Source of the DNA: Caldifarciminota bacterium
Lineage (GTDB): Bacteria; Hydrothermota; Tepidihabitantia; SM23-42
DNA: 37,858 bases
Assembly (NCBI GenBank): GCA_020353055.1
Contig: CP070686.1
Span: forward strand, 1,120,625-1,158,482
Reading direction: 5' to 3'
The position numbers and the translations under genes are program-made. How positions within the stretch are numbered: the first letter of the stretch is position 1; each line of letters starts with the position of its first letter. Under the pieces are notes generated by a model, which had not been told where the DNA came from, made no database searches, and worked only from the letters and a program-made list of their open reading frames with translations. Below, one piece after another: positions 35,881 to 37,858 of the stretch.

Positions 35881-37858
35881 ATGTTGATTAGAAGATGTTT
35901 TATTATTTTTTTTGTGTTGATAAGCGCAGCATTTGCTGCCGACTATCTGGTCAGAATTGACCTCGACGAGCAAAGGCTGGACCCGCTTTTTGAGAACGGT
36001 CTGAGACCCATCGCCGAACTCGACAATACCGCTCTTTTGATCGTTACCGATAATGAACTCGGTAGATTGACTCCTTACTCATTTTCAATAATCGACGAAG
36101 ACCCGGAGGAAGGAAGATATTATCTTGCGCACAGAACCGACGAACATCTTGCTCTGACAGACTATGGAGAAATCCTGATGACAGACGGTTCCGTATATCT
36201 GCTCAAAATCAGACCGGATATGTTGGAAGAACTGATAAAGGAAAAGGTGGACATCCAACGGCTGATGTTCTCACCGATCATCAGGAGCAGCCAGCGAGCA
36301 TCGAAATTTTACTACAATCCGCTTGTACAGACGATCGTCGACCAGGTCGATCCGGACAGCGTTCTCAGCGTCGTCCAGCGTTTACAGGATTTTGTAACTA
36401 GATACTCGACCCATGATTCATGCGATGCCGCCGCCGATTATATCGCGGGTAAATTCACTGATTACGGATGCGACTCTGTCTACTTTCAGTACCACACGAC
36501 GGGGCACGCTCCAAACGTCGTCGGCGTGAAAACCGGAACGCTGTACCCGGACAGTATATACACCGTAGTATGCGGGCATTTTGATGCAACATCCTACCTT
36601 TCGCCGAATATTGCGCCGGGCGCCGATGACAATGCAAGCGGTACCGCGAGTGTGATCGAAGCAATACGTGTCATGCGGAACTACCAGTTCGAATACTCGG
36701 TAAGATACATAGCATTCTCGGGCGAGGAATTCGGGCTGTATGGAAGTTATTATTATGCTTCACTGGCCCGGTCCCAGGGTGACAGCATTCTCGGCGTCCT
36801 CAATGCCGACATGATCGCCTACGTTAACGCCTACCCGGAGAGTGTCGAAGTGCTGGCAAAAATATCAAATCCACCCTGTGAGCCCTTTGCTGATTTCTTT
36901 GTTGCAGCAGCCGATTCTTACACGACGCTGCTCGCAAGAAAACGAATGGTCACTTCTGCTGCGTATTCTGATCATCATCCTTTCTGGCAAAACGGGTACC
37001 TTGCGGTATGTAATATCGAAGATAACCCCTTGGTGAATCCGTATTATCACGAACCAGGTGACACGATCGGCGCTGGTTACAACGACAACGCCTTCTGCAC
37101 CGAAGTGGTGAAAGCTCAGGTGGCGGCTCTCTCACTGATGGCCCGTCCCCTGGCAACCGCATACCTCACGATGCCCGATTACTGGATCGTGGATACCGCG
37201 CCCGGAGGTAACGGCAATGGCATGTGGGAAAGCGGCGAGGAGGTCGATCTGGTGATTCAGATCTATAACATGGGCGTTGACACGGCAAAGAACACCTATG
37301 GTGTGATCAACAATACGAGCCCCTACGTGACCCTTCTCGAAGATAGTTGCTACGTCGGCAACGTTCTGTCACAAGAAACGACCGAGATGTCGTTCAGGAT
37401 ATCTGCAGCGGCGTCAGTACCACTTGGATACGAAACGAATTTTGATCTCAATGTAGTATGTAATACAGGTAACTGGGATTACTCGCTTGAGGTTTTCATC
37501 AATCCACTGCCCAGTCTCTCCTTCTGCGATTATGCCATTATCGATGCAAACGGAATCCTTGAACCCGGAGAGACAGCCGATCTGGTAATTACGCTTGCCA
37601 ATGTGGGCGCCGCATCGGCACAGAATGTCACCACGACCCTAACGAGCAATTCTTCATACCTTACGATCATCGACAACTCAGGTAATTTCGGACAGATCAC
37701 GGTCGGCGATACGATCGACAATGCTTCGGATCCGTTTACGGTGACGGCGAGTGCTTCGGCGCCGTATGGGGTGTTGGTGGCTTGTGAGCTGGTGGTGGTG
37801 GCTGGTTTGTATGTTGATACGTTGGATTTTGATTTAGCGATTGGTGAGCCGGTGCCGT
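35881..37858 (+). CDS. Secreted M28-family zinc aminopeptidase, C-terminus missing
   Basis: The frame is open from ATG 35881, behind CCAGGAGG, to the right edge (659 codons), so the gene is cut. Signal peptide: MLIRRCFIIFFVLISAAFA. The M28 domain (about 165-430) has a complete ligand set: His233 (CGHFDAT), Asp249/Asp250 (GADDNASG), Glu282-Glu283 (FSGEEFGLYGS; catalytic base and ligand), Asp310 (LNADMI) and His365 (SDHHPFW). Two Ig-like repeats follow, each starting near NGMWESGEEVDLVIQI and NGILEPGETADLVITL. They resemble the CARDB/NEW3-like modules common before sorting tails. The last ~45 codons switch to G- or T-ending codons. It would release N-terminal amino acids outside the cell. Confidence 0.93.
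   Translation, partial: MLIRRCFIIFFVLISAAFAADYLVRIDLDEQRLDPLFENGLRPIAELDNTALLIVTDNELGRLTPYSFSIIDEDPEEGRYYLAHRTDEHLALTDYGEILMTDGSVYLLKIRPDMLEELIKEKVDIQRLMFSPIIRSSQRASKFYYNPLVQTIVDQVDPDSVLSVVQRLQDFVTRYSTHDSCDAAADYIAGKFTDYGCDSVYFQYHTTGHAPNVVGVKTGTLYPDSIYTVVCGHFDATSYLSPNIAPGADDNASGTASVIEAIRVMRNYQFEYSVRYIAFSGEEFGLYGSYYYASLARSQGDSILGVLNADMIAYVNAYPESVEVLAKISNPPCEPFADFFVAAADSYTTLLARKRMVTSAAYSDHHPFWQNGYLAVCNIEDNPLVNPYYHEPGDTIGAGYNDNAFCTEVVKAQVAALSLMARPLATAYLTMPDYWIVDTAPGGNGNGMWESGEEVDLVIQIYNMGVDTAKNTYGVINNTSPYVTLLEDSCYVGNVLSQETTEMSFRISAAASVPLGYETNFDLNVVCNTGNWDYSLEVFINPLPSLSFCDYAIIDANGILEPGETADLVITLANVGAASAQNVTTTLTSNSSYLTIIDNSGNFGQITVGDTIDNASDPFTVTASASAPYGVLVACELVVVAGLYVDTLDFDLAIGEPVP

Follow-up and report, generated by a model that had tools for sequence, protein, structure and literature searches.

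The closest known cases to the arrangement described here appear to be the vls cassettes of Borrelia and the gingipain repeats of Porphyromonas gingivalis, of which vls is, by analogy, probably the nearest functional parallel. In Escherichia coli, G/T-rich islands associated with Chi were reportedly described by Biaudet (in 1998) and Colbert (in 1998), and are said to have been tied to the preference of RecA and ascribed to codon usage. Selection of synonymous sites for recombination has been raised for both the Chi islands and vls, where it is hard to test. The vls sequences have a GC skew of ∼0.52 and 27 G runs per kb, such runs being almost absent from the opposite strand (PMC11499132, PMC3585125, PMC3828179). 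For P. gingivalis, the part of the source available describes the adhesin regions of rgpA, kgp and hagA as having identical stretches which recombine and which automated assembly cannot resolve (PMC5266723). RecA filaments are most stable on TGG- or TG-rich strands, the RecA concerned not being that of the phylum considered here (PMC3763553).

Codon usage as a rule differs from one gene, or one genome, to another. Here we describe a secreted peptidase gene in which it flips within about one codon partway along the gene, at or close to the boundary of DNA that other genes share. The gene lies at the right-hand end of the window, by which we mean the whole stretch of DNA analysed (37,858 nucleotides; G000:C1:1120625-1158482, on a 2.69-Mb scaffold). 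We consider it probable that several secreted peptidase genes (M28 and C25) carry at their 3′ end a ∼1-kb cassette, homogenised by gene conversion and with a keto-rich coding strand.

The codon switch in the M28 gene

Three secreted peptidase genes (M14, M14 and M28) stand consecutively between 31254 and 37858, the two M14 genes upstream having FlgD-like C-terminal domains and ordinary codon usage. The M28 gene, at 35881..37858 on the plus strand, is an open frame of which 659 codons are seen, its 3′ end being cut by a scaffold gap; Pfam Peptidase_M28 matches residues 212-397 (E 2e-28). Towards its end comes an Ig-like stretch (37239..37718, plus strand) with ordinary third-position counts, as in the orthologue L086, and this is followed by the start of the shared cassette (37719..37858, plus strand). 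The contig ends at 37858, the next 100 positions of the scaffold being N (L004 3484-3583).

The preliminary description held that the final ∼46 codons end in G or T, with one A and no C, and the count agrees: over the codons at 37720-37857, the third base is G in 26, T in 19, A in one (TTA) and C in none, i.e. 45 of 46 are G/T-ended. The place given there for the switch is also recovered by the change-point optimum, codon 613 of the M28 gene, with a G/T share at third positions (G/T3) of 0.47 upstream and 0.98 downstream, and the frame and the protein homology do continue through it as an Ig-like domain. The usage itself is thus real, but the 46 codons are not a self-contained feature, as the sequence simply stops at a scaffold gap. 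With p = 0.5, at least 45 G/T-ended codons of 46 would be expected with a binomial probability of ∼7e-13. Elsewhere in the window, the G/T share per 46 codons of the other genes averages 0.50 and reaches at most 37/46 over 10,043 sliding positions. A scan of a 796-kb sample of stretches, about one-third of the window's own genome (G000), found no run of 46 codons at 45/46 or more, and all those above 40/46 lay within one family of secreted peptidase genes. Genes of the window have a G/T3 of ∼0.46 on the plus strand and ∼0.54 on the minus strand, a mild skew whose sign is opposite to that of the tract. An antisense open reading frame (108 codons, 37530-37856, minus strand) was rejected as the cause: the antisense frame is open because A is missing at third positions, but it would not remove C, and it is therefore a by-product.

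Shared cassettes and the place of the switch

The tract recurs in other secreted peptidase genes. The 140 bases at 37719-37858 have an exact copy at G000:C1:2120087-2120226 (minus strand), within a C25 (gingipain-type) peptidase gene, and this copy likewise abuts 100 Ns, i.e. another contig end. Past its gap the C25 gene continues into a C-terminal sorting domain, the first 140 bases of which are the end of a third contig. A further copy, at 80% identity, lies at G000:C1:1621725-1621936. The shared contig ends have a fixed length, 140 bp in G000 and 99 bp (exact) in G007, G012 and G023, which we read as the trace of the assembly graph at the edge of a repeat, a length probably tied to k-mer size. 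The window thus ends in an assembly break because of the repeat, and the shared cassettes explain the breaks within these genes. The genomes are metagenome assemblies in which full cassette copies are mostly collapsed.

Although extension of the window to the right meets 100 Ns, paralogues and relatives carry the G/T usage onwards for ∼300 codons, ending near the stop codon. In L006, from the same genome, the module is uninterrupted: usage is ordinary to about 5800 and then ∼90% G/T for ∼300 codons, through the edge of the Ig-like domain, a further domain and a sorting domain, before fading in the final codons. L097 has another G/T module with 58% amino acid identity, and in the next gene the G/T usage starts at the homologous site although the C-terminal domain there (L097 13590-14550) is a different one, matched by no Pfam family. 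As this unlike domain is also G/T-rich, the bias tracks position and is not tied to a single domain family. The switch recurs in CP070802.1 (candidate division WOR-3, now Caldifarciminota), in the orthologues of both the M28 gene (L086) and the C25 gene (L085), each of which is cut off by a gap.

The predicted product of the cassette runs from the edge of an Ig-like domain through a further domain to a C-terminal sorting domain resembling those of type IX secretion. TIGR04183 scores 34.5 bits with the L006 module and 36.6 and 31.4 bits with the L097 proteins (cut-off 23); among Pfam families, Por_Secre_tail falls just under its cut-off in three cases and FlgD_ig passes. The C-terminal sorting module is matched ∼110 times between about 1.0 and 2.69 Mb of G000:C1, mostly through its last 70–90 residues, and a very large set of secreted proteins is accordingly predicted.

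The relation between the switch and the start of identity can be followed in several genomes. In G015, contigs C16 and C3 carry C25 genes with unlike catalytic parts, which thereafter match at 97.8% for 807 bp, as far as the contig end; contig C9 opens with 448 bp at 98.4%, the identity being lost ∼30 bp past the stop codon. G/T3 in G015 rises from ∼0.6 to 0.93 at the start of identity. The change point lies 0.3 codon from the start of identity in both G000 genes and 1.3 codons in both G015 genes; that is, in two genomes two different peptidase genes become 98–100% identical no more than 1.3 codons from the switch. Elsewhere the switch is ahead of the start of identity, by 10 codons in L099 (a 5′ cassette), by 13 and 18 in G023, and by 48 and 32 in G007. 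At comparable edges, then, alignment shows the codon switch at, or shortly before, the point where identity begins.

A 5′ G/T cassette is found just past the signal peptide at L097 15298-15531, L126 6756-7136 (minus strand) and L099 4691-4843. It occurs in further peptidase-type genes, where it also stops at scaffold gaps, and three genes have 89 bp of it at 100% identity. In two genes an identity of 96.7% sets in already upstream of the start codon, and the cassette begins later in a third; here the signal peptide falls inside the identical stretch, yet has ordinary codon usage. This signal peptide, and the offset of 32–48 codons in G007, mean that the extents of identity and of G/T usage do not match exactly.

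Between G000 and G007 the cassettes are ∼90% identical in amino acids and 68% identical at 4-fold sites, whereas copies within a genome share identical stretches. At the level of sequence, a cassette that is common to genes whose catalytic parts are unlike, and whose copies are almost the same in any one genome but differ from species to species, shows concerted evolution, and the suggestion of a recombining surface-repeat module in the preliminary description is in this respect well supported. Gene conversion probably keeps the cassettes alike, a well-supported reading of these patterns.

The 52 modules compared, from the window's genome and related ones, separate by G/T3 into two groups, 0.75–0.93 (n = 13) and 0.38–0.65 (n = 39), the G/T modules being found in nine genomes, two families and one order. 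The sister genes L025-L030 of the window's genome have homologous modules with ordinary usage, and on the protein tree the G/T state shifts at least four times (forced by well-supported branches) and probably seven. The idea that the module was recently acquired is thus unsupported. The nearest ordinary relative, in G005, has 71% amino acid identity, a G/T3 of 0.55 and no near-identical second copy (best other match 67%). Three modules with ordinary G/T3 (L130 and L161 in G005, L137 in G025) have few A-ended codons (0.09) and high C, which is a different shift in composition within the same family. Over 65 genomes of the class, runs of NNK codons proved an unspecific search pattern, matching also the antisense of Lys/Glu/Ala-rich linkers; redundant within the own genome, this pattern was not used for spread beyond the order.

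Nature and possible causes of the G/T bias

In 11 cassettes (3267 codons), 88% of third positions are G or T, with the G+C content nearly unchanged. The GC and AT skews are 0.36 and −0.27, compared with −0.02 and −0.01 in ordinary homologues, and there are 22.5 G runs per kb against 1.2 on the other strand. From ordinary modules to cassettes, the G/T share rises from 0.54 to 0.65 at codon position 1 and from 0.42 to 0.46 at position 2; Leu is written as TTR in 86% of cases against 30%, Val is up and Ile is down. This keto excess at positions 1 and 2, together with the use of TTR for Leu, indicates a pressure on the strand and not on decoding alone. TTA is the sole A-ended codon still common in the 11 cassettes (35% of Leu), the others being nearly absent. 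At 4-fold sites in close pairs (at least 80% amino acid identity), transitions amount to ∼5–7% in G/T pairs against 19–28% in ordinary pairs, whereas transversions are alike in both, G–T exchanges being the most frequent. With few transitions and frequent G–T exchanges, it is the G-or-T state which is kept, and which of the two matters less.

The reading we favour would account for this as follows. Homologous recombination, in the form of gene conversion, would repeatedly copy the cassette between genes, and G/T-rich single strands which pair weakly with themselves would be good substrates for RecA-type pairing. The coding strand would be held G/T-rich through the free wobble positions and partly through the choice of amino acids, such that codon choice tunes recombination and not translation. 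That G/T-richness is maintained for proficiency in RecA-type pairing is the best fit for the bias, in line with the stability of RecA filaments on TGG- or TG-rich strands, but more speculative than gene conversion itself, and we advance it tentatively. More doubtful still, though possible, is the broader proposal that the phylum writes a synonymous 'recombination code' (a keto-rich strand with no short motif) into segments of its secreted peptidase genes, gained and lost repeatedly and enabling domain exchange. As discrete signals, G runs, TGG words and Chi octamers showed no enrichment beyond composition in the cassettes, exact Chi octamers numbering two in 12 kb. Both single DNA strands are predicted to fold less than recoded versions, but any strand skew would produce this, and it does not count as separate proof.

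A serious rival for the cause of the bias keeps concerted evolution by gene conversion, and makes G/T-richness a by-product of a strand asymmetry in mutation, with C-to-T and A-to-G changes on the coding strand, arising in repeated single-stranded exposure during conversion or transcription. The bias has the same direction at all three codon positions, and the shift from Ile to Val fits, as does the partial conservation of the purine/pyrimidine state between G/T cassettes and their nearest ordinary homologue (0.68–0.73, where 0.50 is expected); the two G015 copies, moreover, differ mostly by transitions. C-to-T mutation, however, predicts many GCT, CCT, ACT and TCT codons, whereas GCG (0.77), CCG (0.80), ACG (0.61) and TCG (0.43) lead the T-ended forms; G–T exchanges are many among the synonymous differences, and a sharp edge would be required within a transcription unit. 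We hold this cause to be rather unlikely. A strand-biased mutation tract, as the preliminary description proposed, may be a partial cause, although plain deamination is unlikely given the preference for G-ended codons, the unchanged transversions and the match with the edges of shared DNA. The differences between the G015 copies, mostly ordinary G/A and C/T transitions and not adenine-specific, also speak against the cassettes as targets of a diversity-generating retroelement.

Selection for translation, by which these domains need a special (e.g. slow) set of codons, would suit the strong preferences per amino acid, but we regard it as very unlikely. Homologous domains of sister genes in the same genome use ordinary codons, the choice of amino acids is shifted too, and the different domain at the same place is likewise G/T-biased. 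Slow wobble decoding was rejected, the tRNA set, with CNN anticodons for most G-ended codons, not fitting it, and so was an unstructured mRNA as the reason for the bias, the predicted folding of the mRNA being unchanged relative to recoded versions.

Marginally less probable again is that the module came by horizontal transfer from a replicon with a strong skew. This would explain the abrupt difference in composition from the host gene, but on the protein tree G/T modules are mixed in with ordinary ones, the window's own cassette family includes the ordinary close relative in G005, and the G/T state and the conversion edge coincide in several genomes. Finally, an assembly chimera or sequencing artefact, including the chimeric join first considered, has almost no probability left: the window does break off at a scaffold gap, and its 140 repeated bases resemble an assembly-graph overlap, but the same switch lies inside contigs (L006, L157, L162, L165 and L167), including uninterrupted copies, and recurs in separate assemblies, at the homologous place in the M28 orthologue, with frame and protein homology unbroken.

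Comparison with known recombining genes

The codon switch marks, from the letters of the genome alone, where peptidase genes probably exchange parts, and five boundary cases in four genomes offer a natural, replicated test of whether selection for recombination can act at synonymous sites. Among the open-access papers searched, none was found to describe a codon-usage switch with sharp bounds at edges of this kind. As in P. gingivalis, the C25 peptidase genes here carry type IX sorting domains and have identical stretches in common, to go by the accessible part of that source, which mentions no switch of codon usage at the edges (PMC5266723). Unlike there, the phylum is another and an M28 gene also takes part. 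The Chi islands of E. coli are a widespread trend over coding DNA, in contrast to the sharply bounded, near-saturated tract of one gene family seen here.

The vls system differs in having one expressed gene and a silent array, whereas here several intact genes share the cassette; in the loci read, no silent cassette array was seen, each cassette being the 3′ or 5′ portion of a long open gene of its own. In vls the G+C content is raised and the AT skew is near 0.05, whereas here G+C is unchanged and T and G are both raised (AT skew −0.27), and G runs do not exceed what composition gives. In common with vls, these are cassettes of surface proteins, apparently recombining, homogenised within a strain, and with a skewed coding strand unlike the rest of the genome.
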